DNA from: Buxus sempervirens
Lineage: Eukaryota; Streptophyta; Magnoliopsida; Buxales; Buxaceae
DNA length: 64,000 nucleotides
Assembly (NCBI GenBank): GCA_947561395.2
Contig: OX387187.1
Span: forward strand, 28,873,829-28,937,828
Direction: 5' to 3'
Shown here: positions 1 to 63,476 of the stretch, in pieces
Position numbering within the stretch: position 1 is the first letter of the stretch
Layout of the letters: every line of letters begins with the position of its first letter
Made by a program: the position numbers and the translations under genes
Notes under the pieces: model-generated
The model's input: the letters and a program-made list of their open reading frames with translations, nothing else
What the model was told of the DNA's origin: nothing
Database searches by the model: none

Positions 1-1421
1 GGTTTCTTACATGTGGTGACCCTCATGCCATGAAAATGGAGATAAATACATGCTTAGCATGGTAGGAACATGACCCCATGCAGAAAGAGGAATCCACACA
101 GAAATATTTTTAGAAAAATATGGATTTAATATATGTTGAATCTAACATGGTGAGGAGTCTTACCTGATTTTTTGGCCTCTTGTGCAAGGTGGTGATGTGC
201 CTTGGAGGTGGTACAGCAGCTGGAGACCTCCTTGGAGCACCAACAGCAACTCAAGTCCTTCTTGCTTCAGTCGGAATAGAGAGGAGAAGGAGTAGATGAG
301 AAGGCTTGGGGTGGTATGGGGAGGTGATGGAAGGCAAATGGGGTTGGGAGGGATGGGATTCGAGGTGTGCAGGTGAGAGAAGAGAGCAGGAGAAAAGCTA
401 AAATAAAAGCCAACCCCGGACTGAGCTACTGTTGTCTATTTATAGAAAACTTAATGTATTCGGCAACTCAGGCCGGATACATTAAAGCCTCCCCTTATCC
501 GGCCTTCAAGGCCGGATACACTAGCCTTCCTTTGTATCCGGCATTCAATACCGGATACAAAACTCAATCATTTCAAAATTTAATGCCGCCGCGAATGTGT
601 CGGGCAATCGGCGCGAATCTCGCGCGAAAATCTCCTTGTATCCGGCCTTCAAGTCCGGATACAAAGGGAAGTATGTGTATCCGGCATATATGACCGGATA
701 CAAGTTGAAAAATTACGGATTTGCCCCTCGACTTGACCGATTCGACACTTTTGAACAATTACAGATTGGTCCCTGCGAATTTCAGTTTAGTCCCTGGGAT
801 TTTTATTAAATTTTGGATATTCAAGATTTAGTCCCTGAGATATTTCGCTGCGTTGGCTGCCACGTGTGCAGCTTCTACGCCACGTGTGCAGCTTCCGGCT
901 TTGCTGCTCGGAAACTTTGACAGCTCATATCTCACTCATCTGAACTCCGATTTGAGCAAACTCAATTGTGTTGAACTCATATCGGAGCCCTCTATTTAAT
1001 GACATGGGGCTAAGCACTTGGCACGGGGTTCGAGGAAATGTCAACTTTTGGCCTTCCCTTAAGTTTGACTGCCCTTAGAACTTTCAATCGGACTCCGATT
1101 CCTGCAAACCCAGTTGCGTTGGAACCGTGTCGAGATTCTTTATCCAGTGGTATAGAGCAATGTACTTGGCACGGCAATCGAGGAAAAGTCAACTCTTGGC
1201 TTTTCCTTAAGTTTGACCGTCCGCAGAACCTTCATCCGGACTCCGATTCCTGCAAACCCAGTTGCGTTGGACTCGTGTCGGGATTCTCTATCCATTGAGA
1301 TAAAGCAAGGTAGCCAAATTTTATCTGATTAAAAGGTCAACTTTCCACCCCTCAGGGTTTGACTTTTTAGCCGGGTTTTGCATTTCTGGCTTTTCGGGAG
1401 CGCAAAAATGAGGTTCTTACA
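1..1421 (-). mobile_element. T-family LTR (copy T1), runs off the left edge
   Basis: The LTR reads on the minus strand and begins at 1421 with TGTAAGAACCTCATTTTTGC; its far end lies outside the window. Parts seen in order from 1421 downward: three degenerate copies of a roughly 160-bp internal repeat (motif GGACTCCGATT..GTTGCGTTGGAA), paired G-boxes at 861-890, a palindrome array at 456-701, a TATA box (CTATAAATA, near 437-445) and a splice-donor-like CAG|GTAAGA near 163. It interrupts the DUF7745-type ORF at 1422. The family boundary is confirmed by other copies with target-site duplications. Confidence 0.8.
456..701 (-). repeat. Palindrome array P1 of T1 (25 bp / 39 bp, 3+2)
   Basis: Five 25-bp palindromes start at 456, 495, 534, 638 and 677. 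Neighbours are spaced exactly 39 bp apart, apart from one roughly 79-bp linker between the third and fourth. The consensus is GTATCCGGC, a 7-nt centre, GCCGGATAC. Centres differ (AACTCAG, CTTCAAG, ATTCAAT, CATATAT). The array ends about 10 bp upstream of the LTR TATA box. Confidence 0.9.
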
Positions 1422-2310
1422 ACAGGGGTATATGCTTGGTCAAATGTGTCTCCCCATCTTATATCAATTTTTCCACTTAGTTGGAGAAAGTGGTCAAACC
1501 AGTCCTCTCTGGAGGGTAAGTCTAGTCTAATCTCTCTTCGGGCCATCAAGGTGACACTGTCACGGACGTACCCATAATGTGGGCTGACAGGTTCAGCAAC
1601 CATCAGGTGATCTTGAAGCCAAATGTGTAGCAGAGGAGCGCATCCCTGAAACCTCCTAGTTCCGTTCTTGGTCATAGTCAAGGCATGGTATAGCTGAGCA
1701 AGAATCAACGGCGCAATTCGGAATTTCACTTGGAGTTGGTCTACAATTTCCATGAGGGCCAAATTAATGGTGTCCCCCCCAGTAAGAAAGAAGAGCTGTG
1801 ACAGAACCACGAGGGTGAAGGTGTCCCACCAAACACGGGGTCTTTCCTGCTTTTTGTCCCTTATCTTTTCAGCGAGGAAGGTTTTAGAGACCCGCGTGAA
1901 GGCTTGGTCACCTCCTAAAGTCTGGAATTCTCCTCTGGGTAGGCCAAAGAAAGTACAAGCTTCATTCTTGTAGCTATTTTTGAGGTTTGGCTTGGCTGGT
2001 TCTCCATGGTCACGGAATCGGAGGAATAATTCAAATTCCTCAATTGTAGGGGTCAACTCATTAGTCCCAAATCTAAAGAGGGAAAGTTGGGGATCCCAGA
2101 AAGGCAGGTCTGCCTGAATCATGTCCCAATTAATGGGCACATTTAACAGGGACAGAGTTTGTCCCATATGGTAATTCTGTTCCCATTTAATCTGCTCATC
2201 TCCTTGCAATTGCCTTGTCCAAGAACGGATCCAAGGGGGTATCACAGGCACACTTTTCTATCCTGGGGAAGCGAACTTTCTTAGTCGAAGATGAAGATGC
2301 CATGCCGACT
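1422..2310 (-). mobile_element. DUF7745-type ORF of a Ty3 Tat/Ogre-like element (fossil)
   Basis: A long minus-strand reading frame of about 290 residues, rich in W, F and L (for example LLNVPINWDMIQADLPFWDP and ARREIRLDLPSREDWFDHFL). It resembles the plant retroelement-associated DUF7745 family found as an extra ORF in Tat/Ogre-type Ty3 elements. It lies downstream of a 5' LTR (3613-6028), a primer-binding site (3593-3610) and a leader, all on the minus strand, so it is that element's first ORF. LTR T1 interrupts it at 1421. The family call is from memory of the motif style, without a search. Confidence 0.6.
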
Positions 2311-3610: not shown

Positions 3611-4352
3611 GCTGTGCGCACCTAAATCTGGCCTAGATCGCATACGGGGCGCACAAGGAGGTTCGTGCGTGCCTCGGGACTTTCGGAGTCGCCACTGCCT
3701 GAGAGGTGCAGGCAGACACGGTGATTGCCCTATCCGGGTCTAAGTCTGGTCTGCGGCTTTTCATAGTTCTAGCTAAGTCCTCGGTTACGTCCGGGGAAGC
3801 CCTAAGACACCCCGGCCTGCCCCGTCGGTTTGACGGGTCCCTCGGGTCTCCCTGGTTTATGAGTCAATCTCATCCTTCCTAGACCAGCATGCTGTTTATT
3901 GGGTCTGGCAGGGCCCTCTGAAAGTGTGGGTCCCTTTTACTTTGATTTTATCTTCTCATTTAGTGGAATGGGTCGGACCCGGGTCCCGTCGGAAGACCCA
4001 TGGGTTGCCATGATTGGGCCTGGGGCCCAGTTGGGTTATTGGGTAACCCATTTGGTTATTTAAATTTTATTTATTTACAATTTATTTGGGCTTGATGGGC
4101 TGAGAATGGGCCCATGAGCCAAAGATCAAGTGGCCTGGAGCCCGTTTGTTGAAAACGGGCCCGGTATGGGCCAGTCAAAGGTGGGCCCCATAAGTAGGCC
4201 CAATGTGGTCTTGATGGGCCCATCCGGGCCCATGGTCCAAAAGGAGACTTAAAGAAGTCCAAATTAGTTATTGGGTCGGGTTTTAAGTTTTCGGGTCGGA
4301 CCAAATCCAACCAGGCCAAAAAATTATATTCTTTTTAAGTTATTTCACAATC

Positions 4353-4457
4353 TCCCGTATTTGCTATACGGGCTAGCCTTGCCCGTAAGTACAATACAGG
4401 TCGGACTCGCCCGTGTAGTAAATACGGGCACATCCAGCCCATTCTGAGTATACGGTA
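4353..4457 (-). repeat. Palindrome array P2 of T2 (CCCGTA, 21 bp / 28 bp)
   Basis: Four 21-bp units start at 4353, 4381, 4409 and 4437, exactly 28 bp apart. The first is TCCCGTATTT-G-CTATACGGGC; the last is degenerate. The core is the same as in array P1 of this LTR nearly 1 kb away. Confidence 0.85.
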
Positions 4458-5275
4458 CACCCAATTTTGCGTTTTTGGTGCCAATTTTGGTCGGGATCAA
4501 CTTGGTCGGCTTCGTGGATCTTCTGTTGAGATTCTCAATTTATTAAGGGTGCTGCATTTACTTTGTTTGGCCTAAATGACCTCTTTTTCCTTTTCTCTTG
4601 CATTCTTTGAAGCCATCCTCTTTCTTAACCTTTCATGACTGTTAACCTTTCATGACTGTTCTCAAGAAGGGAGGGAGAGGGAAAGAACGTGGGGATACAG
4701 CAGACTTATATGGAGGACAAATCCCTCATAATAAACAAAACAAAAAAAATGAGGTGGGGTACATTAAAGTTAATCCCAATGTTCCTTTCTTATTTAGGAT
4801 TGTTCTTTTCCATTTATAGGGAAACCACCTTGTATCAAGCCTCTCGTAGTGCACAATAAACAGCAAATGGGTTAGAAATGTTATGGTAACAATAGAACGT
4901 AGAAAGGAAACAAGAAGAGATATTAACAGAAATTACATTCTACTTATGTATCAGAAATACTTACAATATAGTCTCTTTGCTTGTTTTACACTTTTGTGGT
5001 TCTCCAGAAATTTTGACAGCGCTTCCGTGCCCCGTTGGATTCTTAGGATTGGTTTTGAAAGGGTCTTGAAAGGTTGATTATGCTTACAAGGTGAAAGGAG
5101 AGGTTGGGCAGTACTCCAGGGGCAAAATGGGTATTTTTGGGTTAGGTATTGGGGTGGCGAGGTTTGGGCAGAGTTTGGACGTGGTAATAGCAAGGAAGAG
5201 AGGGGGTGGAGGCCCTTGGGGGTTGCTTCTTCGAATGGGAGCCTGGCCTCTCTATTTATAGGCAAAAAAGGTCGT

Positions 5276-5489
5276 GCCCGTATTTAAATACGGGCATGCC
5301 TTGCCCGTACTTCAAATACGGGCATGCCCTGCCCGTACTTCAAATACGGGCGAAAAACGCACATTTGCAAATCTCGCAAAATCGGACGTACAGGACGCGT
5401 GTCCCGCCATACAATGACGTGCGTCCTCTTCTAGAAGCCTGCCCGTATTTCAAATACGGGCATGCCTTGCCCGTATTTCAAATACAGGC
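5276..5489 (-). repeat. Palindrome array P1 of T2 (CCCGTA, 21 bp / 28 bp, 3+2)
   Basis: Units start at 5276, 5303, 5331, 5441 and 5469: three at 27-28 bp spacing, a roughly 90-bp linker, then two at 28 bp. The type unit is GCCCGTATTT-C-AAATACGGGC. The 3+2 layout with a linker matches array P1 of T1 and T4, although the palindrome sequence is completely different. The array abuts the TATA box at 5252-5261. Confidence 0.9.
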
Positions 5490-6028
5490 CAGCAAGTTTT
5501 TAAAATGTTTGGATTTCAAACCTTTATTCAATTTGATTTTTTTTAAGATTTCTATTTGATTTTTCCGATTATTTTATTGAAAAGCGAGATTCCCTTTATT
5601 AAAATATTAATAAATACATTTATTTTATTTATTTTATTGGTTTATTCCCTTTTTTGCTGCCTTTTTGCCACATGGGCAGTTTTTCTAAAACTTCAACTGC
5701 CCATAACTTCTTCGTCCGGTGTCCGATTTCAGCAAACTTAGTGTCGTTGAAACCGGCTCAGAACCACCTATCTATTGGGATCAAGTTTGGCAGCTGAATT
5801 GGGGTCAAGCAAAAAGTCAATTTTTCATTCCCCAAAAATTTGACCAGCTTATAACTTTCTCATCCGGACTCCAATTCCAACAAATTCAGTTGCGTTGGAA
5901 CCATGTCGAAATTCTCTCTTTAATGAGATGAAGTTTGATGGCCAAATCAAAAATTCAATTTTTGGACCCCCTCAAGGTTTGACTTTTAGTTTGACTTTTC
6001 ATTTTTCTTCATTTTGTGAGTGCTAACA

Positions 6029-7689
6029 ACCTCCTCTTCTTCTTTCTCTTGGAAGAAATGGACCTTGACCGAGGTCCCCACGGGTGCTATCAATTGAGAT
6101 GGGTCAAAGGCCCTTCTCATGGCGGATATAGCAGTGATAGATTTGGACCGGCCTGCCCCATTGTGGTAAGGCAGAGGGTTTTGCCCGATATCATTTTCTA
6201 ACGGGCAGGCGCAGTAGTATTAAAGAGCAGGGCCTTCTGATCCAATAGATCCTGGACCGTGTGCTTTAGAACCCAGCAAGTGTCTATAGAGTGCCCTGGT
6301 GCACCCATGTGAAAGTCACAAGTGACTGTTGGATCGAAATTCCTCCCTTTTGAGGCATTCGGGCTAGGCTCCTTCAAGGCCACGTACTCCCCTTTCAGCA
6401 GGGTTGGCAACTGTTGAGAAAGAAACACAGGAAGGGGGGTAAAGACTCTGCTCCTCTTTGCTGCCATCCAGGAATCCTTTTCTTCCTTAATGAAAGCCCT
6501 CCTCTGATTTGCAGGCATGGAGGGGGAGAAACTGACATTGAACGGGGTCTGGTATGACTAGTGGGCTTGTTGGGCCTGTTGGGGTGCAGAAATATTGACA
6601 TGGAGCGGTTTCTTAGACGGAGGAGCCTGTACTAGGTTTACTTTTCCTTCTTTTCTTGCCTCGTTCTTCTTGAACCCAGTTCCCTTCTTCTATGCCAGGG
6701 AAGCGGAGGAATCTGATTGCCCGGCCAAAGCAGAGTAATCAATAAGTTTTCCCAACCTGACCCCTTCCTCGATCCTGTCGGCCACCTGTACCAGGGCTGC
6801 AAAATTGGTGGTGATCTGACCCACCAGATGATTATAGAAGGGCTGCCCCAGTGTACCCATGAACGTTGAGATCATTTCGGGTTCCAACATAGGCGGCCTG
6901 ACCTGGGAGGCAACCTCTCTCCTCTCTCCATCTCTTAGCATACTGCCTTACAGACTCCTCCTTTCCCTTGCTCATTCTCATCATGTCGTACCGATCTGGC
7001 ACGATCTCTGAGTTGAATTTATATTGGTCCAGAAACGTGTCGGCCAAGTCCTTCCACCTTCTGATCCTTCTGTGGTCCACCGGCAAACCACCTCAGAGCC
7101 GATCCTGTCAAACTCCTCTGGAAGAATTGGATCAGTATGCCATCATCCCGGCAAAACTGGCACAAAGCCCCGCAGTATAACTTCAAGTGGCTCATTGGGC
7201 AACCCGTGCCATCATATTTATCGAAGTCCAGGCACTTAAACTTGGTCGGTAGGCATGCATCCGGGTATATGCACAGGTCGTCGAAGGTGGTGCCTCCATA
7301 GCTGTTTCCCCCCTTCACCTCCTTGAGTTCTTCCTAGATCCTCTCTATCTTGTGCAGTAATTTCCTTTCCATCTCCTCCCTAGCTTTTTCTTTTTCCATC
7401 TCTTTCTCATACTCCACAGTGTTTTCCCTTATCAAAATAGGCTTAGGGACAGGTTCAGAAATGGGCTCAGGTATGGGTTGAGCCGGAGGTGGAATGTAGG
7501 CTTGAGGTGGCGATGTTTGATGGGAAGTAGAGGCTTGGTTTTGGGCCTGAGCCGCCAGTAAGTCTCCCAGCATCTTGGCTAGTCCGGCCACCTGCTTTTG
7601 CAGCTGAGCAAAGTCCTAAGCAAGGACAGTAGCTTGGGCTTAGTTCTCTTCAGTATTCATTGCTCGAGCTTTAGATCTGGTCACGGGAG
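6029..7689 (-). mobile_element. Gag region of an older Tat/Ogre-like Ty3 element (fossil)
   Basis: Minus-strand Gag reads in several pieces. The retrotransposon Gag domain is clear near 7020-7320 (FKCLDFDKYDGTGCPMSHLK, SLTGSALRWF), with an N-terminal proline-rich region near 7334-7660 and a C-terminal part at 6198-6518 (CDFHMGAPGHSIDTCWVLKH) typical of Tat/Ogre Gag. The element is broken in several places and is split by LTR T2 on its low-coordinate side and LTR T3 near its start. Confidence 0.8.
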
Positions 7690-8788: not shown

Positions 8789-8852
8789 GTATCCGACCAT
8801 TATGGTTGGACACAAACAGAACAAGGGTGATCCGACCTGAGTTGTCGAATCA
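8789..8852 (-). repeat. Palindrome array P2 of T3 (25 bp / 39 bp)
   Basis: Two 25-bp units start at 8789 and 8828 (39 bp apart), with a partial third before them near 8773. The unit at 8828 carries the AACTCAG centre on the minus strand, like the first unit in other copies. Confidence 0.8.
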
Positions 8853-11333: not shown

Positions 11334-11484
11334 ATTGCAAGTAAGTGTACCTGGGTTAGGAAAAGCAAAGAAACATGTTAGCTCCCATTTAATTTGGGTC
11401 TCACACCTATAAATGTAGATAAGTGGGTTAGGTGAACACAAGTCCGGATTTATTTGTTTTCTATATTTTTTTTTGTTTTTTTTA
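11334..11484. other. Short segment right of T3, no gene seen
   Basis: Continuation of the older Tat/Ogre element upstream of its Gag. It holds a T-rich tract near 11466. No ORF or RNA gene is supported. Confidence 0.4.
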
Positions 11485-12372: not shown

Positions 12373-12514
12373 GTATCCGACATGACATGTCGGCTAAGGC
12401 TATGTCTTATTGTATCCGACATAAATAATCGTATACAAGCATAAAAGCCTTTTACCGATGACATACGTCGGATAAGAAGGAAACTCTGTTTAACCGACTT
12501 GAGTTGTCGGTTAA
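12373..12514. repeat. Orphan palindrome array (25 bp / 39 bp, 4 units)
   Basis: Units start at 12373, 12412, 12451 and 12490, exactly 39 bp apart. The last is TTAACCGAC-TTGAGTT-GTCGGTTAA, changed symmetrically from the usual GTATCCGAC arms. No complete LTR surrounds it, so it is probably left from a decayed LTR. Confidence 0.85.
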
Positions 12515-14044: not shown

Positions 14045-16216
14045 AATCATGTTACAAGAAAGGTGTGAATGGGCACCAAAAATCATCACAATAAACAAAA
14101 AGGCAAAAACTAGAGTAAAAATAACTCTACTTGAAAATAAAATCCAGAGATGGGTAAGGGGATTAGATTATGAACGGGGGAATGTGTTAGGCACCCCCAC
14201 TCACCCACACAAGGTGGTTGCCAAGTGTTGTTCATGCTGAAAAATAAGAAAGCTTGCTAAAATCATCAAAAACCTTGAAAAAGGATTAAACAAATGTATG
14301 ATACTTTCACATGAGAAATCCAATGAATTCCAGATCCTCTTTTATGTCACTATCACTTTTGGGATATCACCATTAAATGGAAATCAAAGCAAGACTTGAA
14401 CAAAACCAAGTTGAGACAAATCCGGAAAATTCGGTAAAAGATAGAGCCATTTGTCTTGAAATCATTCAAATCAAATTTTAATTAAGTCAAACCAAATCCA
14501 TTTGAAAGATTATGATAAATATAAGACTCATGCAAATTTTCAATCAAATCCGGTTAAAATCCTAGGAGTTATGCTCTTTTGAATTCTGCTGTTGGAAATT
14601 GTTAAAAGTAACAAGTGAATCAGTCACCCACGACACAAATGGAATCAAAAAATTATGAAACCAACTGAATTCGAAATTATACTCCTGAAGGAAAACACAA
14701 AAACAAAAATAACTCAAATCGGACTTAAAACGAACACATGGTGCTCATTCGAAGTGACAGGTTCAGCAATTAGACCTGAACTGTCCTGTCAACTTCGACT
14801 GAATGGTATCAAAAATCCCCTTCATAAAAATCAATGAACTTTTATGGAAATAAACTAGACAGACTCACCTTTTCCATGGCTTTACAATCACTCCAAAATT
14901 CATCCGGATGATAAAGTTATGAGTGTCCGAATTTAGGGTACAACTGCTGTCCAGTTTAGACCTTCTTAAGTAAAATCAATCCAAAACGGTGATCAAATGT
15001 GTGTGATCCGTGCAATATGAATCAAAATCATTTGAAAAATTGTTAAAGAACCTCTAGGTGGAAATAGGGCACAAGGTTGGCTCACCATCCTCTCCGATTG
15101 GAGAGAATATGCAAAAAACCTTCAAATTGAGCAAAACGCCCAAAACTGAGAGGTTAGACCATGAGGTCTTCAATACGTGCTTGAAATCATGTTGAAAACC
15201 ATTGAAAAATGTTCCAGAACTGTTTGGGGCTATTTATTTCAGATCTACCACAATGATTGCATTAAATCCGAAATACAAGCCGATTCGACAAAAACGGGTG
15301 CTATGTGTATATGTGTAAAAATCCACTCTTCAACAACATATAGCATTTATATCAATCAAATGGGGTTCTAAAAACCTAGGGTTCCGTTCCATTCTCGTTT
15401 CTCTTAGTTCTCTCTCCCCGTTTTATGGTTCTTCGAGATAGTCTTGGGGTACTTTGAGTATGAAACGGTTTTCATAGAACAAAAGGCTTTTCAAAAGGAT
15501 TCTAACACTAAGGATCAATCCTCAGTCTCGTTTCCCCTAGATCCCTCTTCACGTTTTACGGCTAAAGGGAGTCTTGAGGTACTTTGAGTAGAGAAAGGGG
15601 TTGCATACACAAAGATTAGGCCATTATTCTACAGAAAGGTAGAAAAAAAGAGCTAACCCTAGAATGTAAAGACAGAAAAATAAAAAGGGTTTTAGGCTTA
15701 CCTAGGTTTCTGGAAGCAGTACGGCAGCGGTTCCCTTCTCCACTCGGAGCTCTTCAACCTCAAACTTCTTGGTCATTTGCTTTAGGAGAGGCCTCCTATT
15801 TATAGGCAAAGGCTAGGGTTAGGGTTTGCATGATGCTAGACACAAAATGATGTCTAGAATCCACCAACTTAAACCCTAAGGCTATTTCCGAGATTTCCAT
15901 TTCTAAAATGAAGGATATGATGGTAAAAAAGTGAAAACTCTCGGAAAACCCTAATTTTGAGCAAAAACCTTGTATCGGACAACTCCGGTCGGCTATAAGG
16001 GCACCTATATGTATCCAACATATGTCGTCGAATACAATAATACCTGCTTGTATCCGACGACTTGTGTCGGATATAAAAAGGTCTTCTTGTATCCGATGAC
16101 TTGTGTAGGATACAATAAAGAATGCTTAAATCTGAATTTTTGTGTTGGTTACAAATGAAAGAATGATTTTTGCCAATTATTCATTATTTTCTCAGCAAAA
16201 TTTTGGGGTGTTTACA
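14045..16216 (-). mobile_element. A-family LTR, truncated (copy A5)
   Basis: On the minus strand it begins TGTAAACACCCC at 16216. It carries a palindrome array at 15972-16152, TATA CTATAAATAG at 15796-15805 and donor CCTAG|GTAAGCC near 15711, then matches copies A3 and A4 to about 14045. The terminal CATGTCTCACA part is missing, so no target-site duplication can be assigned. Confidence 0.8.
15972..16152 (-). repeat. Palindrome array of A5 (25 bp / 39 bp, 4-5 units)
   Basis: Units start at 15972, 16011, 16050, 16089 and a decayed one at 16128, all 39 bp apart. Arms vary around GTATCCGAC / GTCGGATAC. Confidence 0.85.
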
Positions 16217-20188: not shown

Positions 20189-20427
20189 GTATCCGACATA
20201 ATATGTCGGATACGAATATTTTTCTTTGTATCTGATATAATATACCGGATACAAAAGATTTTTTCCAAAATCTCCCCGGATTTTCCGACAGATTTTCTGA
20301 GCGCATTTAATGTTTGAAATGATTGTGTTTGTATCCGGCATTTTATGTCGGATACAAACGGGGCTTAGTGTATCCGACATAGTAATACACACCAAATAAT
20401 GTGTATCCAACATATTATGTCGGATAC
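20189..20427 (+). repeat. Palindrome array P1 of T4 (25 bp / 39 bp, 2+3)
   Basis: Units start at 20189, 20228, 20331, 20370 and 20403: two, a linker of about 78 bp, then three, ending 11 bp before the TATA box. The type unit is GTATCCGAC-ATAATAT-GTCGGATAC. The linker is recognisably like that in T1. Confidence 0.9.
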
Positions 20428-21892
20428 AAAATGCTGCCTATAAAAAGGGGGCAGCACCCCCTTGGTCGAGGTTGGCTTCCCTTGGCTGGTTTTCACCCCT
20501 TTTCCCCCACACCCACTAGTTCGAATCCCCTCTCTTCCATCTCTCCTTGCCCCCATACCACTCAAATAACATTCGAAGTCTAATCTCTTCCTCTTTTCCT
20601 CTCTTCTTCTTCATTCTCACCCAAACAAAAGGAGGAGGACATGCTGTTGGTGGCCAAAGAAGGAGCTCCAATCCCTTGCCTTGCTTCAAGGAACCTCAAC
20701 CACACCACTCCAGAGTTTGTATACACCAAGGTAGTGTTTCCCACCATCTTTTATTACATATATGTGAAAATGGGATGATTTCATGAATGTTCTAGAGGCT
20801 TCGTAGATCTTTGCTGTAATCCGTTATTCAACATGATCTTTGCATGTTCTCTCCTCTTTTTCCTCACATACACATCTCCTATGGTATGAGGAATACTTAT
20901 GGCTTCAAGGGGCGGTTGAGATTCCACCCGTATATGATTTTCATCGTCATTGGGTTGCTATTTTGCCATCCTTTACTTCTCATTCAAATGGGGGGAGGGT
21001 GTTCCCCCTTTGTTTATTCATCTAATGTACCCCACTTAACCCCCCCTCTTTCCCTTCTTTAAATAATTTTGCTTTGATGATCTTATGCATGTTTTGAGCA
21101 TGAAGGTAATGGTAAGGTTGGTTGGTTTGTTTAGGTTAGATCATATATGCATGTTGTAAGCACCTCATTTTTGCACCTCCCAAGATGCAGAAAATGATAT
21201 TTTAATGGAAAAGTCAAACTTGAGAAAGTCAAAAAGTTGACTTTTTATCTGGTGCAAATCAGTTGCCATGCTTCCCACCATTGGAAAGAGGATTCCGATA
21301 CGATTCTAATGGAACAGAGTTTGCTCAAATCGGAGTCCAGATGAAGAAGTTATGGACTAGTCAAATTTGAGAAAAGCAGAAATTGACTTTCTGCTAAACC
21401 CCAGATCAGCTACCTCATTTGATACCAGCAGAAAGAGCATCTCGACACGATTCCAAAGCAACTGAGTTTGCTGGAATCGGAGTCTCGGATAAGGAAATAT
21501 GAGCAAAATCGGCTCCCGGACACGGCCCGGCACTTCTGCTAAAAAACTCGAATTTGCTGCTAAACTGAAATTCAGTGGATAGGGAATCTCGCACTGATTC
21601 CAACGCCACTAAGTTTGCTAAAATCGGATATCAGACGAGCGAGTTGTGAGCAGTTAAAGTTTCTGAAAATCTGCACACGTGGCAAAACAGTGAAGAAAGA
21701 GCAGCAAAATGAAAAGTTTTGAATTAAAAAATAATATTTTTGCTAAAAATCTAATTAAAGTATTTAAAGTAAAAGAAAAAGAAAAGAAAATTAAAAGATG
21801 CATAAAACAAAGATCTTAATAAAATAATAACAAAAGCAAATGAATTAAGTACATAAAGAAAAAAAAAGAAAAATAAAAAATAAATGATTGGA

Positions 21893-21956
21893 CGAATTCT
21901 CCATGTGGAGAATTCGTTCAAGCAAACTTGGCCTCCAAGTTTACTTGGAGGCTAAG
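21893..21956 (+). repeat. P1 of T5: two unrelated palindromes
   Basis: CGAATTCTCCA-TG-TGGAGAATTCG (21893-21916) is perfect. CTTGGCCTCCAAGT-TT-ACTTGGAGGCTAAG (21927-21956) has 13 of 14 arm bases matching. They lie about 100 bp upstream of TATA, in the slot that holds the five-unit array in T1, T2 and T4, but with sequences found in no other array here. Confidence 0.9.
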
Positions 21957-23433: not shown

Positions 23434-23536
23434 TGATCTGGCAACTCAGGCCGGATCAACAGAGTCCCATTCGTAGCCGGCAATAGATGCCGGATACACA
23501 GAACCCTGTGCGTAACCGGCATCTTAGGCTGGCTAC
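23434..23536 (+). repeat. Palindrome array P2 of T5 (25 bp / 39 bp, 3 units)
   Basis: Units start at 23434, 23473 and 23512, 39 bp apart. The first has the AACTCAG centre; the second is GTAGCCGGC-AATAGAT-GCCGGATAC. Confidence 0.9.
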
Positions 23537-24941: not shown

Positions 24942-25083
24942 TAATCCGACAACTTAGGTCAGATCAACCTGTGTTTGTTTGTAGCCAACATCCAAGGTTG
25001 GCTACATATAATCTTGTGTGTAGTCGACAGCTAAGGCCGACTACACTGGTTCCTGTGTGTAGCCGGCATCTCAGGTCAGCTAC
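24942..25083 (+). repeat. Palindrome array P2 of T4 (25 bp / 39 bp, 4 units)
   Basis: Units start at 24942, 24981, 25020 and 25059, exactly 39 bp apart. Examples are GTAGCCAAC-ATCCAAG-GTTGGCTAC and GTAGTCGAC-AGCTAAG-GCCGACTAC. Several changes are mirrored in both arms. Confidence 0.9.
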
Positions 25084-28413: not shown

Positions 28414-28417
28414 GTAA

Positions 28418-42125: not shown

Positions 42126-43923
42126 TGTAGACACCCCAAATTGCACTAAAAATGAGAAAATAATTGAAAATATTAATTGGGATTTGAAACAGGTCAAAAA
42201 AGTATAAAATCTGGCCAAACTGATCATGACCGTATTTTGTTTACGGTCTGGTCATACCTACAGTTGATATACGGTCACGGCGTGCCCGTATTAATAATAC
42301 GGGCAGGGCGTGACCGTAATATATATACGGGCCCGGGGGTCTTTGTGCGAATTTTACCTTTTTGATTTTTGAGCCTTATCTGCACCCAAATATCTCTCCT
42401 GGATAAGCGAATTCTCTTATTTATCTGTTCGAATTATCTCATTTATCCTTGTTGGCCATAGATGGGCATTATCCTTGTATTTAACTCAATCTGGAACTCT
42501 ATCTTGCCAAACCTTAGACCAACCATGCCCCTGTGTTTGCCTATAAATAGAGGGCCTTTCCTCAAGCAAAGGGCCACGAAATTTTGAAGTCCAAGGAACT
42601 CCAAGAGAAGAGAAGAACCCCTGCTGCCTGCCTGCTCAATCCAGGTAAGTCTCTTATCCCTTTTATTTTCTGTTCTAGAAATAATAGGATCTTCTCCATT
42701 GCTGTAGAATAAGGCCTTCTTTTATTTTGTATTCCTAAACTTGTCTCTAAGTACCTCAAGAGTCTCTCTAGCCGTAAAACGTGAAGAGAGAGCTAAGGGA
42801 AAAGAGAACAGGTGGATCCCTAGAATAGAACCCCATATCTGTTTTTTTCTTTTTTTCTAGAATAAGGCCTTTGATTGTGTTTGTATCACCAAACCTATCT
42901 CCAAGTACCTCAAGAGTCTCTCTAGCCGTAAAACGTGAAGAGAGAGCTAGGGGAAAAGAGAACAGGTGGATCCGTAGGGTAGACCCCCATGTGCTCTGAT
43001 TTGTGAGATGTGGCTGCTTGTGATATCCTGATCATGTTTTAATGGTTTTATTTTATATCTGGATGAATCCTATGAGTTCATGATGTTTATAGCATGAGAT
43101 CCCCACTTTTTTCTAAAATTTGGATTTTCACCACTTTTGCACCTATAGCACTGTTTTCGTGATTTTTGTGATTTTAGGCTAAGATCTTGGATTTATCATG
43201 ATCAATATGGTAGATCTGGATCTAGAAGCCTGAAAGTAAATTCTAGGGTTTCATGATGTGATTTTTGAGTCCTTTTCTATTTTTGAGAGAAGACCCTACG
43301 GTCTCAGTTCTTCCCTTTTGATGTTCTTCATCTATGTGGGTATTTTTGGTTTTTATTTTCTGATTTAATGTGAAATTTGGGCTTTATCTATGTCCTGGAC
43401 TGTTCAAGTTCAATTTTGAAATATTTTATAAAAATCATATTTTTCTAGATTTCTAGAATTTGACTTGAAGCCAGATTTTTGGATTTTTCACTTTAAATTG
43501 ATTTTATTTGATTTTATCTCAATTTTGTTTTGATCATGAAACCCTAGGAATGGTATGATCATATTTGAAAGTTCTGGATCAACCAGACTATTCATATGAA
43601 AAAACCATACAATTTTGTGATTTTTTGTGATTTTTATAACAAGCTTTTTCCTTTATTTCAACATGAACAATACCTGGCAACCACCTTGTGTGGATGAATA
43701 GGGGTGCCTAACACCTTCCCCTGTTCATAACCTAATCCCCTTACCCATCTCTGGTTGTTTTTTTTTAAAGAGGGTTATTTTTACCCTAAATTTGCCTTTT
43801 GTGCTTATTTGATATTTTGGTGTCCATTCACACCTAAATTGAATGGTGGCGACTCTGTGTTTTTAATTGATCCCGCGTGATGATTGAGGAAGTCATTAGA
43901 TTGATTTTTTCCCATGTCTCACA
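42126..43923 (+). mobile_element. A-family solo LTR (copy A1), TSD GGTCT
   Basis: TGTAGACACCCC at 42126 to GTCTCACA at 43923, 1798 bp, with perfect GGTCT duplications (42121-42125, 43924-43928) inside the Gag of the Tekay-like fossil. It carries a CCCGTA-type array (42228-42332), TATA CTATAAATAG at 42541-42550, donor CCAG|GTAAGT near 42645 and a TGGTGGCGACTCTG core about 75 bp from the end. Confidence 0.95.
42228..42332 (+). repeat. Palindrome array of A1 (CCCGTA/ACCGTA, 21 bp / 28 bp)
   Basis: Units start at 42228, 42256 (degenerate), 42284 and 42312, exactly 28 bp apart. The third is GCCCGTATTA-A-TAATACGGGC. Other A copies (A3, A4, A5) have the TCCGAC 25/39 module here instead. Confidence 0.88.
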
Positions 43924-45886: not shown

Positions 45887-48489
45887 TGTGAGACATGGAA
45901 AATCACCTAGATGATTTCCTCATCATCACACGGGGTTTACAAAGGGTTGGAGTCGTCACCATTCAAGTTAAGGTGTGAATGGACACCAAAGGGATCATAA
46001 AAATGTAAAATAGAGTTTAAAGTAACTCTAATTCATGGTTAAATCCAGAAATCAGGTAAGGGGATTAGGTTATGAGTAGCAGAATGTATTAGGCACCCCC
46101 ACTCATCCACACAAGATGGTTGCCACATGCTGTTCATGCTTCAAAATTACTTGCTAACATAAATCCATCAAAAGTGCTTGAAAAGCAACAAACACATGTG
46201 TGATTCCTCCATAGGAGTAGTTAGTTAAATTCTGGACTCTCTCTATGGATATATCACCTCTAGAACTTCAAGATTAGGTAAAAATCAAAGTAAAGATTAA
46301 AGAAAATCAAATTAAAACAAATCTGGAAAAATCAATAAGAGATGAAGTTACATTAGCTTGAAAACTTTTACCATTCATAAATCATTCAATTCAAATTCAA
46401 TTTGAGTGAAACCAAAGCCATTAGAAAGCTGGTATGAAGTAAAATAATCAGTAAAAAAAAAATCAGCTCAGTCTGATTTAAAACCAAAGAGAAATACTCA
46501 ATCCAATCTACTATTGTAAATCTGCAAAAGCGGCGAGTAACCAACTTTGAAACTCTATTCGTGGAGACTGGCTCCATATAAATCCTTAAAAACTTGCATG
46601 AATGAAGTATTTGATGCCATATTTTGAATGAAATAGGTCTCACACAAAACTCCATCCATTTGTGACTTGTGCGACCTCTCGAACATGCCTAGAGGATCAC
46701 TGATCAACTCATAACTCTGCTAATGAGCAGCTCTGAGTCAATCAAACATACAAGACACAAGCCAAATTGAAAACTCTTGAAATTAATTGGATTTGAAAAT
46801 AGACTCATAAAGAAAAACACAGAGATTAAAATCACTTAAATCGGATTTAAAATGAGCAAATGGTGCTCGATCAAAGTGACAAGTTCAGTAATCTTATCTG
46901 AACTGACCTGTCGACTTTGATCAGATGGTATCAAAAATTCACTCCAAATAAATTGCTACAATTTAACAGACACAAACTAGACATCTTCACCTATCACATG
47001 TCTTTGGAATCATTCAAAAATTCATCTAGATGATGAAGTTATGAGTGTTCTAAAACAGGGTATAGGTTCTGTCCAGGTTTGAAAACTCAGAGTAAAAAAT
47101 GAGACAAAACAGTGAGTGTGTGCAATGGATTCGATTAAACTTGCTTGAACTCACTAACATTGAGTTGGAAAAATGCTCAGAACAACTTCAAGATGAACAT
47201 GGTGAAATAGTTGGAGAGGAAGAACTAACCTCTTATTAGTTGGAGAGGAAGAACTAAGTTCATCCACAAAAGCTTGAAATAAAGAGTTTAGACCATAGGG
47301 TCTTCTCTCAAAGATTGAAATCACTAAAATCCACTCATGAAGTCTTAGGAATTTGCTCTAAGGCCATTGATCTCAGATTTACCATATTGAACATGGTGAA
47401 TCCAAGATCTAGCATATTCTTGACAAAATGGAAGTGATACGTGTGTTATTGTGTGTAAATCAAATTTCTAGGAGAAAATGGGGATCTAAAGCTATAGAGA
47501 GCATAGATCACTGTGTTTTCTCCAGATTTAAAACACAATCACCTTAGAAAAATAACAATCACAATCAAATCAAAAATGCAATCACAAGATGGTTCTAAAC
47601 CTAAAGTTCCATTCCAGCTTCCTTTTCCCCAAGCTCTCTCTTCACTTTTTACGGCTAAAGAGGATTCTTAGGTACTTTAGAAGTGGTTTGGGGCTCCAAA
47701 CACACACTAGGGCCTTACACTACAAAAAGGTTCAAGGAGAGAATGCTGGAATGTAAAAAAATGAAGAAGAGAAGGAAGTAGTCTTACTTTAGTAGCTGGG
47801 GAGAGTTGAGACAGCAATTCGGCAGAGCTTCACTTCTTCTTCCATAGCCTTCAAGCTTCAAAATAGCAGCCCTTTGCAAAAGGAGAGCCCCTCTATTTAT
47901 AGTCATAGCCAAGGGTATAAAAGACCCAAGGGTAGGCCAATAAATCCTTCTAGATTATTCCAATTCAAACCAAAGGCTTGAATTAAAGAAATTCAATAAG
48001 TTTCGAAGGGCAAAATAGGGAGATCAAGTCTCCCAGAGAGAGGTAATATGCATAAATAAGGCTCAGATCTCGAGCCTTTTCACAAATGACCAAAATGAGC
48101 ACAACCGCATACACAGTGCGGTTTAGACCAAACCGCCCTCTACTTGTGGTTACGGCAAAACTATACTCAAACCGCACACTTAGTGCGATCAAAATTCCGT
48201 TACACGCTAATGATTGCTGCTGATGTGGCCTAACGGCCTAGGCTTCTAGAAGCCACATGGCAGCCCACTTGCGCGCACGCAAGAAGCATGAAGCTGACCA
48301 CACATCAAGTGCAGTCGCAACCGCACATCATATGCGGCCAAGACCAAATGACCAAAAATCGCATTGCATGTGTGGTCAGCACTTTTTTGAATATTTTTGA
48401 GTTTTTGACACTTGTCAAAGCTCAATTAAATCATTTAAAATTCATTTTCAATGATCTCTCATATTGTAGTGCAATTTGGGGTGTCTACA
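45887..48489 (-). mobile_element. A-family solo LTR (copy A2), TSD CATAT
   Basis: TGTGAGACATGG at 45887 to GGTGTCTACA at 48489, 2603 bp, with perfect CATAT duplications (45882-45886, 48490-48494). The TATA box (CTATAAATAG on the minus strand) is at 47893-47902 and a donor-like AAAGTAAGAC near 47789. It has an ACCGCA-type palindrome array at 48103-48377. Confidence 0.95.
48103..48377 (-). repeat. Palindrome array of A2 (ACCGCA type, 21 bp)
   Basis: 21-bp units start at 48103, 48131 (28 bp apart) and 48170, and after a linker at 48296, 48319 and 48357. Examples are AACCGCAT-ACACA-GTGCGGTT and CCGCA-CATCATA-TGCGG. Spacing is less regular than in other arrays. Confidence 0.75.
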
Positions 48490-49618: not shown

Positions 49619-52072
49619 TGCAGACACCCCAAAATTGCCCTGGGAAAATGATGAATAATTGGCATAAATCATTCTTTCCTTTAAAACCAGCACAAAATTT
49701 GAGAATTAAGCATTTTTTCTTGTATCCGACAACTCAGGTCGGATACAAGCATATCCTTTTATATCCGACAGAAGTTGTCGAATACAAGCAGTTATTAATG
49801 TATCTGACGACATATGTCGGATACATATATGTGCTCTTGTATCCGACCTGATATGTCGGATACAAGCTTTTTGCTCAAAATTAGGGTTTTCCGAGAGTTT
49901 TCACTTTTTAACATCATATCCTTCATTAAAGGAGTGGAAATCTTGAAAATAGCCTTAGGGTTTAGGTTAGTGGACTCTAGACATCATTTTGTGTCTAGCA
50001 TAATGCAAACCCTAACCCTTGCCTTTGCCTATAAATAGGAGGCTCCTCCTCAAGCAAATGGCCAATAAGTTGGAGATTGAAGAGCTCCAAGTGAAGAAAG
50101 GAACTGCTGCCGCATTGCTTTCAAAAACCCAGGTAAGCCTAAATCCCTCTTTATTTTTCTGTCTTTACATTCTAGAGTTATTTCTTTTCTTCTACCCTTC
50201 TGTAGAATAAGGCCTACTCTTTGTGTATGCAAACCCTTCCTCTACTCAAAGTACCTCAAGACTCCCCCTAGCCGTAAAACGAGAAGGTGGGATCTAGGGA
50301 AACGAGACTAAGGATTGATCCTTAGTGTTAGAACCTTGTTGAAAAGCATTTTGATTCTATAAAAACCGTTTCATACTCACAGTACCCCAAGACTATCTCA
50401 AAGAACCATTAAACGAGGAGAGAGAACTAAGGGAAACGAGAATGGAATGGAACCCTAGGTCTTTTTAGAACCCCATTTGATTGATATGAATGCTACGTGT
50501 GGTTATATTTGAAGAAATGATTTTTACACATATACACATATTGCACTCGTTTTTCGTCGGAATCGGCTTGTATTTCGGATGTATTGCATTCATTGTGATA
50601 GACCTGAAATAAATAGCCCCTAGCATTTTTGGGATGTCTCTTATTGATTTCAAATGAGTTTATCTTGACTCTTGAAGACCTCTAGGTATAACCTCCCGGT
50701 TTTGGGCATTTTTGCTCACTTTTGGGGATTTTGGCATATTCTTTCCAATCGAAGAGAATGGTGAGCCAAACTTGTGCCATATTTCTTCCTAGAGGTTATT
50801 CAACACTTTTTCAAGTGATATTGATTTACATTGCACGGATCACACACATCCAATCACTGATTTGAATTGATTTTACTTAAAAGTTGCAAAAAGGGACAGC
50901 AACTGTACCCTAACTTCGAACACCCATAACTTCATCGTCCAGATGAATTTTGGAGTGATTCTAAAGCCATAGGAAAGGTGATGCTATCTAGTTTATGTCT
51001 GTAAAATTTCATTAATTTTTATGAAGTGGATGTTTTACACTACTCAGTCGAAGTTTATAGGTCAGTTCAGGCCAAATTGCGGAACCAGTCACTTTGACTG
51101 AGCGCCATGTGTTCGTATTAAGTTCGATTCAAGTGATTTTTGTTTCTGTATTTTCCTTCAGAAGTCTAATTTCATATCCAGTTGGTTTCATAATTTTTTG
51201 ACTCCATTTGTGTCGTGGGTAACAGATTTACTCAGAACTGCTCAACAACACATTTCTGGGTTAATCTGTGATCTTCGGGGCCTGTTCGGGAGGTCACCCA
51301 AGGCACATCCGGATGGATTTTTGTATGAGGCTAGTTTCATATGAAATATGGCCCTACATACTTAATTAATGCCAAATTTCAGGGATTTATATGGAGCCAA
51401 TGTTTCTAAATGAATTTCCAAAGTTGTCCACTTGTTACTTTTAACTATTTCCAGCAGCATATTTCAAAGGGGAATAACTCCTAGGATTTTAACCGAATTT
51501 GATTGAAAATTTGCATGAGTCTTCTATTTATCATAATCTTTCAAATGGATTTGGTTTGATTCAATTTAAATTGGATTTGAATGATTTCAAGACAAATGGC
51601 ACTATCTTTTACCGAATTTTCTGGATTTGACTCAACTTGGTTTTATTCAATTTTTGCTTTGATTTCCATCTAATGATGATATCCCAGAAGTGATACTTAC
51701 ATAAAAGAGGATCTGGAATTCATTGGATTTCTCATGTGGAAGTATCATACATTTGCTTAATCCTTTCACAAGCACTTTTGATTATTTTAGCAAGCCTTCG
51801 TTATTTTGAGCATGAACAACCTTTGGCAACCACCTTGTGTGGGTGAGTGGGGGTGCCAAACACCTTCCCCCGTTCATAATCTAATCCCCTTACCCATCCC
51901 TGAATTTTATTTTCATGTAGAGTTATTTTTACTCTAATTTTTGCCTTTTGCTCTTTTGATGATTTTTTGTGTCCATTCACACCTCAAAATTGGATGGTGG
52001 CGACTCTCCCATTTTCGTTGAGCCCGTGTGATGACGGAGGGAATCATCTCAGTGACTTTTCCATGTCTCACA
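49619..52072 (+). mobile_element. A-family solo LTR (copy A3), TSD CCTTC
   Basis: TGCAGACACCCC at 49619 to GTCTCACA at 52072, 2454 bp, with perfect CCTTC duplications (49614-49618, 52073-52077). It carries a 25/39 palindrome array at 49722-49863, TATA CTATAAATAGG at 50029-50039 and donor CCAG|GTAAGCC at about 50133. Confidence 0.95.
49722..49863 (+). repeat. Palindrome array of A3 (25 bp / 39 bp, 4 units)
   Basis: Units start at 49722, 49761, 49800 and 49839, exactly 39 bp apart. The first is GTATCCGAC-AACTCAG-GTCGGATAC. It lies about 165 bp upstream of the TATA box. Confidence 0.95.
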
Positions 52073-53879: not shown

Positions 53880-54004
53880 ATTCACTTTGAATTGCTATAC
53901 AAAGTGTGATCTAGATCTATAGCATGGACTTTGGAAAATAAGGAGGATCTGCCTCTAGACCTCCATTATTTGAAGGTAACAATTATTCTTACTGGAAAGC
54001 AAGA

Positions 54005-56300: not shown

Positions 56301-56309
56301 TCAAGGCAT

Positions 56310-56414
56310 GTCTGCATACCATACGCGGTTTTGTCCGAACCACATACCATATGCGGTTTTGTCCGAACCGCATACCATATGCGGTTTTGTCCAAACCGCA
56401 TACCATATGCTGTT
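56310..56414 (-). repeat. Palindrome array of A6 (ACCGCA type, 21 bp / 28 bp)
   Basis: Units start at 56310, 56338, 56366 and 56394, exactly 28 bp apart. The third is AACCGCATA-CCA-TATGCGGTT. The core is like that of A2 but cleaner. Confidence 0.9.
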
Positions 56415-56478
56415 TTGTCCAAAATGGCCTATCTACACAGATTCTACATAGCCTTGACCCTTACCTGCATAGGCAATA

Positions 56479-56560
56479 CTTATTTACATGTAATATCCTT
56501 TAAGTAAATGTCCTTGTATTTTTTAATCTCCATTTACTTAAGATATTACATGTAAATAAG
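56479..56560. repeat. Long hairpin, about 30-bp stem, 20-nt loop
   Basis: The left arm 56479-56510 and right arm 56531-56560 are complementary except for a 2-nt bulge (CTTATTTACATGTAATATC..TAAGTAAATG). It is AT-rich, unlike the CpG-bearing arrays. Confidence 0.9.
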
Positions 56561-59600: not shown

Positions 59601-59910
59601 TATTGGTTTATTCGGTTCGGAAATAGCATTCACATCTAGCAATAATCACAAAAAAACACAAGATGGACACTCTGTCAGAAAAAAAAAACCGGCTCATTGT
59701 GCTGGGTCCAAGGGGAGGTACCCGGGGGCCCCGTGGGCGAAGCGAAGCGGAGCCCACGGGGTGGGGTACCTCCCCGTACCAAGGCACGAGTTGGATGCGC
59801 AGCGAACCAAGGGGTGGGGGGTGCGGGGGGCAAAGCCCCCCGCGGTATGGTAAGGGGTATTTTTGGAATTTTCAAAAAAAATAACAATTCGGCCTGTTTT
59901 GGACCTGGCG

Positions 59911-61258: not shown

Positions 61259-61375
61259 TGCCGCCCACCTTGGCGCCCAGCTCAAGGTGGGCGCAAGCCC
61301 GCTCGCCACGTCCGCGCGAGCGGCAAAATGATGAAAATCATTTAATGCCGCCGCTCGCCGGACGTAAAAATCTTT
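61259..61375 (-). repeat. P1 region of T7 (GGCGCC and CGCTCG palindromes)
   Basis: TGGCGCCCA-GCTCAAGG-TGGGCGCAA, CGCTCGC..CGCGCGAGCGG and ATGAT-GAAA-ATCAT lie just upstream of TATA. Confidence 0.8.
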
Positions 61376-63334
61376 AAAATTAAGATTTAGTCCCTGACAA
61401 TTTTTGGTAAAATCCGATATTCTTGGATTTTTACAGATTTAGTCCCTGGGATATTTCGAATGTTCGGATATTTACGGATTTGATCCCCGAGATATTTTCC
61501 TGCGCAACTCGCCATGTGTGCAGCTTTTTGCCACGTGCGCAGATTGCCGGTTTTGCTGCCCGGGAATTTCGTCAGCTCATATTTCCTTCATCCGGACTCC
61601 GATCTGGGCAAACTTAGTTTCATTAGAATCGTATCGGAGCCCTCCATCCCATGACCTAGGGGTAGGCCTCTGGATCGGATTTTAGCAGAAAGTCAACTTT
61701 TGGCTCTGCTCAAGTTTGACCGCCCGCAGAACCTTCATCCGGACCCCGATTCCTGCAAACTCGGTTGCGTTGGAACCGTGTCGAGATTCTCTATCCAATG
61801 ACATAAAGCAAGGTACTTGGCACGGAATTCGAGGAAAAGTCAACTCTCAGCTTTTCCTTAAGTTTGACCGCCCGCAGAACCTTCATCCGGACTCCGATTC
61901 CTGCAAACTCAGTTGCGTTGGAATCGTGTCGAGATTCTCTATCCAATGGCATAAAGCGAGGTGGCCAAATTTCACTTGATCAAAAAGTCAACTTTTCACC
62001 CCTTAGGGTTTGACTTTCTGTCCAGGGTTTGCATTTTTGGTTTTTCGGGGAGCGCAAAAATGAGGTGCTTACAAGTAGTGTTCGAATTTTTCTCCTCTCA
62101 TTGCTCTCCTTTCATGGTCTTCTAAGCATGATTACCTTTGGAAGGTAAGAATGAAGGGGTTGGCCAAATTAGGGAGAAAATGAGAAACCTTTGGCTTGGT
62201 TTGAAGTGTTTATGGCTACTGTTGTGTACAAATGCTTTGCTGTCCCCTCTTCGTTTTAAATGGGGGAGCATGTTCCCCTTGTGCTTTTTATCTAATGTAC
62301 CCCACGAGTAACCCCCCTCTTCCCTTCTTCAAGTTTTTAGGATGAATGGATGATCTATGTGGATAGGATGATGAAAATAGCACATGAAGCATGCTGAGTT
62401 TATTCCTTTTTTATTTTATTTTTGCATAAGGTTTAGTTGCTATCATATGTGTACACGGATTAATCTTCATTTAAAGTATGGGTTTTGCTATCTCTAAGAT
62501 CATATAAGTTTTCCCTCTTACTTGCTGTTTTGTAGGTTTTCACCACGATTTTACTTCTCTTTTAATCACTATTTTGAGCCACACAAAAAACCAGCCCATT
62601 TGGCCTTGCATATGTCCCATAAGCATGCTATGCCCTCATGAATTAAAAGTCTATCTAGGTGTCTTAAATGCTTTACTATTTGATGTCATTCTATACACCT
62701 AAAAGAGGCTTTCTTTTTAGCTCCTAGGTATGAAAGATGCACACACATGCACTTCAAGGGCAAGTGGTCTCTTGGAAATTGAGTCTTTAAGTCACTTGCA
62801 CATATTCCACCGAAATTCTGTTCTTGCATGGCTTATTAGTATGTCTAGGTGCCTTCCATATCTTGTGACTTGATTTAGTTTGGTATGCAAGTAAGTAATC
62901 ATTCTGGCTCATGTACACGGCCCCCTTGAATGTATGAGGCATGTAGGGGTACACACACTTCACTTTTGGTTTGAGTTATGCATGTTGGCACACACTTCAC
63001 TTTTGGTTTGAGTTATGCATGTTGGCCTTGATTAGTAGGTCTTAGGTGGCCCTCTTTTGCTTGCTGTTGTGTGACACAAAAAGAACCAAGATAGGGATAC
63101 CTAAGTCCCTATTTCACTGCTGATCATGGTGTGAAAGGGGAGAGGCAAAACCTTAGGCTTCCTCCCCTTTACCTTGCTTGAACTTTGGAAACCACAAGAG
63201 ACCAAAAAGCATGCTCCCTCATTCTTTGAACCAATTTGGGCCCACACAGGGGCCCATACAATAACTGGAACATCCCAAGAGACCCATAAACCCAACCCCA
63301 TTGAAAAAATCCCAAAAAAGTAGACTCTGTATGG

Positions 63335-63476
63335 TGATCCGGCAACTCAGGCCGGATCAACAGAGTCATGTGTGTAGCCGGCAACAAATGCCGGATACAC
63401 TGAGTCATGTGTGTATCCGGCAACAGATGCCGGATACACTGAGCCTTATGTGTAACCGGCACCTTAGGCCAGCTAC
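63335..63476 (+). repeat. Palindrome array P2 of T6 (25 bp / 39 bp, 4 units)
   Basis: Units start at 63335, 63374, 63413 and 63452, exactly 39 bp apart. The first is TGATCCGGC-AACTCAG-GCCGGATCA; the third GTATCCGGC-AACAGAT-GCCGGATAC. Confidence 0.95.

Follow-up and report, generated by a model that had tools for sequence, protein, structure and literature searches.

Fixed-pitch palindrome arrays common to two LTR families in a Buxus sempervirens sequence, and their possible exchange as regulatory modules

A stretch of 64,000 nucleotides from Buxus sempervirens (contig OX387187.1, positions 28,873,829 to 28,937,828; hereafter the window) is plant-type DNA rich in transposons, in which two families of long terminal repeats (LTRs), T and A, recur. 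LTRs of both families carry tandem arrays of short palindromes set at an exact pitch of 39 or 28 bp, in many copies just upstream of the TATA box and, in T, also at a second site, and the array types are common to two families that are otherwise dissimilar. This sharing of cassette types is real, and exchange between the families is the favoured, as yet unproven, reading of it. On balance we lean towards the view that the arrays are modular U3 enhancers of Ogre/Tat-like LTRs, predicted binding sites of a dimeric protein, that pass between co-resident families. All typing and tree tests below concern the LTR copies within this one window.

Palindrome types, pitch and placement

T LTRs begin with TGTAAGCACCTCATTTTTG and end with GCGCACA, while A LTRs begin with TGTAGACACCCCAAATT and end with CTCACA. 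One palindromic unit, GTATCCGRC-N7-GYCGGATAC (type I), builds all ten arrays of 39-bp pitch (Table 1), whose start coordinates agree throughout with those in an earlier note on this DNA. Its 38 counted units include 28 steps, 25 of exactly 39 bp and the others of 104, 103 and 72 bp. They were taken from 48 matches at up to six mismatches (9.9 in shuffled sequence), ten having been left out as isolated, overlapping or too decayed; one of those left out, at 16128 with six mismatches, lies 39 bp past the last A2 unit. The type II unit, GCCCGTATTT-n-AAATACGGGC, makes both arrays of Tb and that of A5, with 12 units and eight of nine steps exactly 28 bp. The search for it was loose (seven mismatches; 16 matches against 8.3 in shuffles, weak by count alone); four isolated matches were left out and the A5 unit at 42256 was kept at seven mismatches. 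Type III, GCGGTTT-N5-AAACCGC extended to 25 bp, forms the arrays at 56310 and 48103, also of 28-bp pitch, and brings the motif types to at least three; the GC-rich palindromes of Ti, which at its second site show tandem periods of 11 and 22 bp, are a further type. The 28-bp class of the earlier note is thus sound in its pitch but mixes types II and III where a single 21-bp motif had been supposed, and at 48103, which it listed as a partial case, there is one strong unit among decayed ones.

The two spacings also emerge when palindromes (8 of 10 pairs) are sought without regard to motif and set against 60 shuffles that kept the local dinucleotide content. In 15 palindrome pairs the distance was exactly 39 bp; 13 of these pairs belong to arrays and two do not (20415-20454 and 54169-54208). 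Pairs at 38-40 bp numbered 16, for a shuffle mean of 0.35 (maximum 2), and pairs at 27-29 bp nine, for a mean of 0.48 (maximum 3), an enrichment at both spacings that the earlier note had led one to expect; a stricter scan (9 of 10 pairs) left three pairs in each class against 0.02 and 0. By simple arithmetic, 39 and 28 bp exceed whole turns of 10.5 bp by 7.5 and 7.0 bp, respectively.

Placement is likewise regular. Dyad-symmetric repeats upstream of TATA were confirmed in Ta, Tb, Te, A2, A4 and A5, this site in T being termed P1, and the arrays of the second T site, P2, lie downstream of TATA. P1 has one layout in Ta and Te (type I) and in Tb (type II), namely two units, a gap of about 80-90 bp, two or three further units and then the TATA box (at 437-445 in Ta), which follows the array by 11, 11 and 14 bp in Ta, Te and Tb. 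The first array unit of A2-A5 stands at LTR position 103 or 104, whichever the motif type. An earlier claim that the arrays sit either by a TATA box or at a second site in T holds for Ta, Tb, Te, A2, A4, A5 and P2 but fails at 12373, where the array, here Ax, has neither a T nor an A body around it; Ax is a third context for a type I array, one that matches those of both A and T. About ten copies of a 76-bp tandem repeat (11480-12248) occur shortly before Ax, and tandem repeats of about 148 bp, variable in copy number, lie near the 5' end of T LTRs (1016-1312, 10984-11266, 61728-62009 and 21262-21650).

The P1 gaps of Ta and Te are related (0 of 500 shuffles as good), and that of Ti was equalled in 3 of 500 shuffles when compared with Ta and in 15 of 500 with Te. 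The idea of a kept scaffold with a rewritten motif, for which the Tb gap would be homologous to those of Ta and Te, was set aside as weak, 31 and 10 of 500 shuffles having scored as well. When about 450 bp before TATA was compared with 301 bp around P2 in six T LTRs, the score within the LTR topped its row for Tb (49, against 25 or less elsewhere in the row) and for Ti (40, against 22 or less); P1 and P2 are concordant in three of the six (Tb, Te and Ti), and the summed diagonal was reached in 13 of 720 permutations.

Table 1. Arrays, palindromes and associated features in the window (positions of the window; TSD, target-site duplication; ORF, open reading frame; PBS, primer-binding site; PMD, plant mobile domain)
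Feature	Position	Strand	Context
Ta P1, five type I units (2 + gap + 3)	456..701	-	Ta LTR 1421->off window
Tb P2, three type II units at 28 bp	4353..4429	-	
Tb P1, five type II units (2 + gap + 3)	5275..5489	-	TATA at 5253-5261, 14 bp beyond the array
Tc P2, two type I units	8789..8852	-	solo LTR about 11328->7703, TSD CATTG
Ax, four type I units	12373..12514	.	no recognised T or A LTR body around it
A2 U3 array, four type I units	15972..16113	-	first unit at LTR position 104
Te P1, four type I units counted (2 + gap + 2)	20189..20427	+	TATA at 20438, 11 bp beyond the array
Tf P1, pair of unrelated palindromes (GAATTCTCC.., CCTCCAAG..), 37 bp from centre to centre	21888..21956	+	
Tf P2, three type I units	23434..23536	+	solo LTR 21155-24506, TSD CATGT
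Te P2, four type I units	24942..25083	+	Te interrupted by solo LTR Tf
A3 U3 array, four type I units	30630..30771	-	first unit at LTR position 103
A5 U3 array, type II, four units at 28 bp (one of them very weak)	42228..42332	+	LTR 42126-43923, TSD GGTCT; first unit at LTR position 103
A6 array, type III, a single strong unit next to decayed ones	48100..48200	-	LTR 48489->45887, TSD ATATG
A4 U3 array, four type I units	49722..49863	+	LTR 49619-52072, TSD CCTTC; first unit at LTR position 104
A7 array, four type III units at 28 bp	56314..56427	-	truncated A LTR 57002->about 56300
Ti P2, GC-rich palindromes, same type as Ti P1	59903..60167	-	
Ti P1, GC-rich palindromes (GGCGCCCACC type) near TATA	61262..61325	-	solo LTR 62073->about 58640, TSD AGTAG
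Th P2, four type I units	63335..63476	+	Th LTR 57325-.. split by Ti
Tb LTR (5' LTR)	3613..6035	-	start approximate
ORF, Pfam matches DUF7745 (E 1.3e-15) and PMD (E 4.6e-13)	1370..2257	-	downstream of Tb LTR and PBS
GTGGCGACTC motif sites	24431, 43847, 51998, 58668, 63854, 45949, 28483, 7769, 3685		

Sharing between the families and the tree of LTR bodies

When nine pieces of T LTRs were compared with six A LTRs by BLASTN (E 0.01, word size 7), 35 matches resulted, of which masking of the arrays left a single one (38 bp, in inverted orientation). Without masking, Ta P1, Te P1, Tc P2 and Th P2 match the type I A LTRs and Tb matches A5, and neither Tf P2 nor Te P2 has an A match in this search. 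Local alignment scores reach 55 for Te P1 with A4 and 60 for Tb P1 with A5 (200 shuffles of one pair gave no more than 28); the score of Tf P2 with A3 and A4, 27, is at noise level. Both pitches are therefore found in both families, as had been reported from inspection, type II in Tb together with A5 and type I in T and in A2-A4. The accompanying description of T and A as unrelated goes too far: masking removes nearly all matches, but the two have a common LTR start, TGTARACACC, and a common GGTGTC..CACC..GTGGCGACTC motif near the LTR end, although a profile search with the LTR ends gave no significant T-A homology (best E 0.058). The PBS-like GTGGCGACTC follows the GGTGTC..CACC stem roughly 60-90 bp before the LTR end in T and A, and could be the relic of an older primer site, i.e., of an LTR lengthened at its 3' end.

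The recurrence of the centre AACTCAG, first seen by eye, is borne out: the heptamer or its complement, within one mismatch, occupies 11 of the 38 type I centres. All 11 lie in end units, which make up 20 of the 38 (hypergeometric 1.4e-4, for a test chosen after the pattern was noticed), 10 of the 11 read inwards, and at Tc P2 it is the distal unit that has this centre.

A tree of T bodies, built from the first 340 bp or so of seven T LTRs (5' LTR part), groups Ta with Ti (100/99) and rejects a clade of Ta and Te (p-AU, approximately unbiased test, 2.2e-11), although both have type I at P1; Tf is on a long branch and one fork is open. Agreement between body and cassette trees, which the earlier note had named as what would remove the need for exchange, was thus not found, although loss or replacement of the P1 type in other lineages could also have produced the discordance. 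Among A LTRs, A5 and A6 (types II and III) are alignable at LTR positions 1-46 and then from 400/572 onward, and A4 (type I) is alignable with either from 397-403/574 onward, near the TATA box at 412-417 of A4/A5. Across the U3 between the start and the TATA region the three show no match (plus strand only), and the start of A4 resembles other A starts only over the short terminal pattern. Since A LTRs of different cassette types cannot be aligned over the whole U3 as far as TATA, it may be U3, rather than the array, that is swapped. The proposal of an exchanged cassette is accordingly supported in part, with the exchange favoured only and the unit possibly larger. Sites for one trans factor may also have been re-created independently in T and A.

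Host elements and the competing explanations

The Ogre-like features of T all come from Tb, the one T LTR with internal sequence. It is followed at about 3609-3592 by a PBS-like TTGCGACTCCACTGGGGA, a putative site of tRNA-Arg type, assigned with no tRNA in the window for comparison, and by the PMD/DUF7745 ORF, which a Ta insertion interrupts. That ORF and the presumed tRNA-Arg-type site instead of TATCAGAGC rule out, through Tb, the alternative that T is a Sirevirus. Ogre elements use tRNA-Arg and have a PMD ORF whose function is stated as unknown in the passages available of one source (PMC9289625), and PMD is present in 57% of them according to another, also seen in part (PMC6317226). T is most likely Ogre-like, because a PMD ORF adjoins Tb and PMD is this frequent in Ogre. 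We infer that A, too, belongs with Ogre/Tat-like elements, a Sirevirus origin being unlikely; its assigned copies A2-A7 are LTRs without internal sequence, solo or truncated, with neither a PBS nor a polypurine tract adjoining. Target duplications, 5 bp long at the solo LTRs (Table 1) and with one mismatch at A3, were read by eye. Pieces of gypsy protease, reverse transcriptase and RNase H (40253-41853, minus strand, near solo LTR A5) and a weak gag piece (6835-7092) are tied to no T LTR, and no polymerase in the window could be linked to one. An 853-aa copia open frame (53942-56503; gag, Pol_BBD) continues into the type III array of A7 as a chimeric frame, and ankyrin-repeat and weak PGG-domain pieces (27787-28422 and 31692-32285) are probably host-type gene remnants between transposons.

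Under the enhancer reading that we favour, each unit, with its dyad symmetry, would be a putative target of a dimeric protein that recognises a specific DNA sequence, and the fixed pitch would set adjacent dimers at a constant rotation, 39 and 28 bp giving a nearly equal angle. The protein-bound array beside TATA would drive U3 transcription, and P2 would repeat the site within R/U5. Motif types would turn over fast and would move between T and A, in whichever direction, probably as a U3 block and through template switching between co-packaged RNAs or gene conversion. Dimeric-protein enhancer sites are suggested because of the dyad symmetry, the fixed pitch, the proximity to TATA and the slower change of the arms. 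As to the last, differences among A2, A3 and A4 amount to 28/216 in arms and 57/210 in centres and spacers (Fisher 2.6e-4, from comparisons that are not independent), and to 697/6018 in LTR bodies, so that the array is a fast-changing block in which the arms lag behind the remainder. Changes to both partners of a pair within units fill 28 cells against 9.4 in shuffles, an excess inflated by the kinship of units, and 12 of the 28 are A.T to G.C at the eighth arm position. Pooled observed-to-expected CpG is 1.16 in arrays and 0.48 in bodies, and is higher in arrays in 13 of 13 LTRs. A lasting shelter of array CpGs from methylation decay found no support, A2-A4 having kept 21 of 27 there against 78 of 96 in the body; because the two are lost alike, the CpG richness reflects the motif, not protection.

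Several observations count against this enhancer reading. Conservation of the arms does not exceed that of the LTR body (p 0.52). The palindromes of A6 and A7 are displaced, to LTR position 363 and positions 599-641, and the type I/II search found no such array at P1 of Tc or Th. P1 and P2 do not match in Tc, Tf and Th, and Te P1 scores 35 with its own P2 and 52 with that of Th. Exchange is weakened in that type II is common to the families through one T and one A copy only, and the type I A copies, A2-A4, are close relatives. Two further points concern folding. All seven stretches folded as RNA are very stable (z -6.5 to -17.4) and beat all of 200 shuffles. Array-level dyads, in which mirror pairs form outside the arms at 18, 26 and 17 of 35 positions in A2, A3 and A4 (about 10 in shuffles; 4, 0 and 64 of 5000 shuffles as good), are superfluous to a protein array, and the inward AACTCAG ends of A2-A4, three copies that amount to hardly more than a single case, are part of this larger symmetry.

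Because the arrays also fold stably as RNA, symmetry alone cannot separate a DNA site from a hairpin, and the main structural rival is that they act as stem-loops or cruciforms, in RNA processing, packaging or small-RNA production, with symmetry kept for folding. The array-level pairing of A2-A4 agrees with such a role, as does the attraction of small RNAs to Sirevirus palindromes described in the available parts of two papers (PMC10760457, PMC5311732). We nevertheless consider it unlikely: the dyads of Ax, Te P2, Th P2, Tf P2 and Ta are no better than shuffles, folding needs neither an exact pitch of 39 or 28 bp nor identical arms in two families, and P1, upstream of TATA, would be found only in the 3' part of the transcript. 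No known structured RNA was found in Rfam at gathering score. Templated repair could equally yield the A2-A4 dyads and the symmetric changes within units, and the parity of arms and body would suit arrays that slippage or such repair had built and perfected without any function; yet a mutational by-product accounts poorly for the fixed place near TATA in Ta, Te and Tb or at a set LTR position in A2-A5, for arms more conserved than the rest of the array, and for identical arms in two families, and is very improbable. Common ancestry without exchange, from one ancestral LTR that had both types and of which only the arrays are still recognisable, would explain the like LTR starts, the GGTGTC..CACC..GTGGCGACTC motif and the AACTCAG end units in T and A. 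It would require a long-kept polymorphism to place two types in two families, it conflicts with the Ta/Te discordance within T and the non-significant terminal homology, and it sits badly with centres and spacers that outpace the body in A2-A4 while AACTCAG is common to T and A; we rate it as quite unlikely.

A last alternative, in our judgement also unlikely, is a lock-and-key system in which an accessory protein of the element, for example the candidate PMD/DUF7745 product, would bind the element's own palindromes and relieve silencing or activate, the motif type shifting along with the protein as with VANC of VANDAL elements. The P1-P2 concordance in three LTRs and the position of the ORF next to the type II Tb LTR speak for it. 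The window, however, holds a single PMD/DUF7745 ORF, array CpGs are lost like those of the body, and an AlphaFold model of the ORF from one sequence (pLDDT 36) was not used. DUF1985, which we take to be the VANC domain, is absent among the matches to the ORF at E up to 10, a range in which HMMER filters drop most matches above about 0.1. The frequency of PMD in Ogre is in its favour, as is the binding of VANC proteins to short motifs in rapidly diverging noncoding tandem arrays, described in the portions seen of two papers (PMC5735166, PMC10398659). A bolder form joins this to the Ogre/Tat-like setting: the arrays would be two-site palindromic operators read by a putative cognate dimeric factor, possibly PMD/DUF7745, that switch together and are traded between families. 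We think it rather improbable; if it were true, one family's factor could serve, or be parasitised by, another family.

Relation to known systems and implications

The earlier note knew of no description of such arrays, a claim that goes too far, since palindromes in many copies, with a CGG-CCG core and upstream of a conserved TATA, have been published for the LTRs of Sireviruses, some palindromes also preceding the envelope-like gene (PMC2829016, seen in part, for this and the following comparisons). These RM boxes share with the present arrays their multiple copies shortly upstream of TATA, CpG richness, an element-specific motif and, in some elements, extra copies at a second site. The arrays here are thus laid out like RM boxes and, by analogy, probably act similarly. 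The CGG..CCG signature is found in type III, is reversed to CCG..CGG in types I and II and is unclear in Ti and in Tf P1. Sireviruses have 8-32 copies per element with no fixed pitch stated, whereas here arrays have 2-5 units at 39 or 28 bp and an LTR copy has up to eight over P1 and P2 (Te and Tb) or four (A2-A5). Sireviruses are, moreover, Ty1/copia elements, whereas Tb is Ogre-like and the same motif occurs in two families of one genome.

Other systems share single traits. In Tnt1, Retrolyc1 and Retrosol, as here, a divergent U3 lies between conserved neighbours as a fast-evolving module; there, U3 types split the subfamilies of the Tnt1 superfamily, whereas here one array type spans two LTR families that show no other similarity, and the term "palindrom" is absent from the main text (PMC1838419). 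The VANC targets of VANDAL elements are likewise tandem, fast-evolving, short noncoding motifs of several types; those of VANDAL21 share one orientation and are never termed palindromes in the main text, and their binding by VANC is demonstrated, whereas the binder here is putative (PMC5735166). The fungal LTR element crapaud also exchanges U3 between subfamilies, by a proposed template switching between co-packaged RNAs, although within one family and, in its main text, without mention of "palindrom" (PMC10787394). In LTRs of Del elements (Ty3/gypsy), CpG islands that vary in length occupy the 5' part, "palindrome" being absent from the main text (PMC4029996). All four accounts are taken from the parts of these papers that were seen. 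Among the matches listed in the literature searches, which took in few subscription papers, there were no fixed-pitch palindrome arrays in Ogre/Tat LTRs and no sharing of such arrays between families. As far as this literature goes, what is new is the occurrence in an Ogre-like setting, the division into exact pitch classes, the presence of identical types in two LTR families within one genome and the partial P1-P2 concordance.

The exact pitch, the two sites per LTR and the small number of motif types make the trans factor directly searchable. If the pattern is true genome-wide, control modules of large plant retrotransposons would move between families apart from the LTR body, trans factors rather than descent would decide which elements are activated together, and the plant mobile domain ORF of Ogre elements would gain a testable role.

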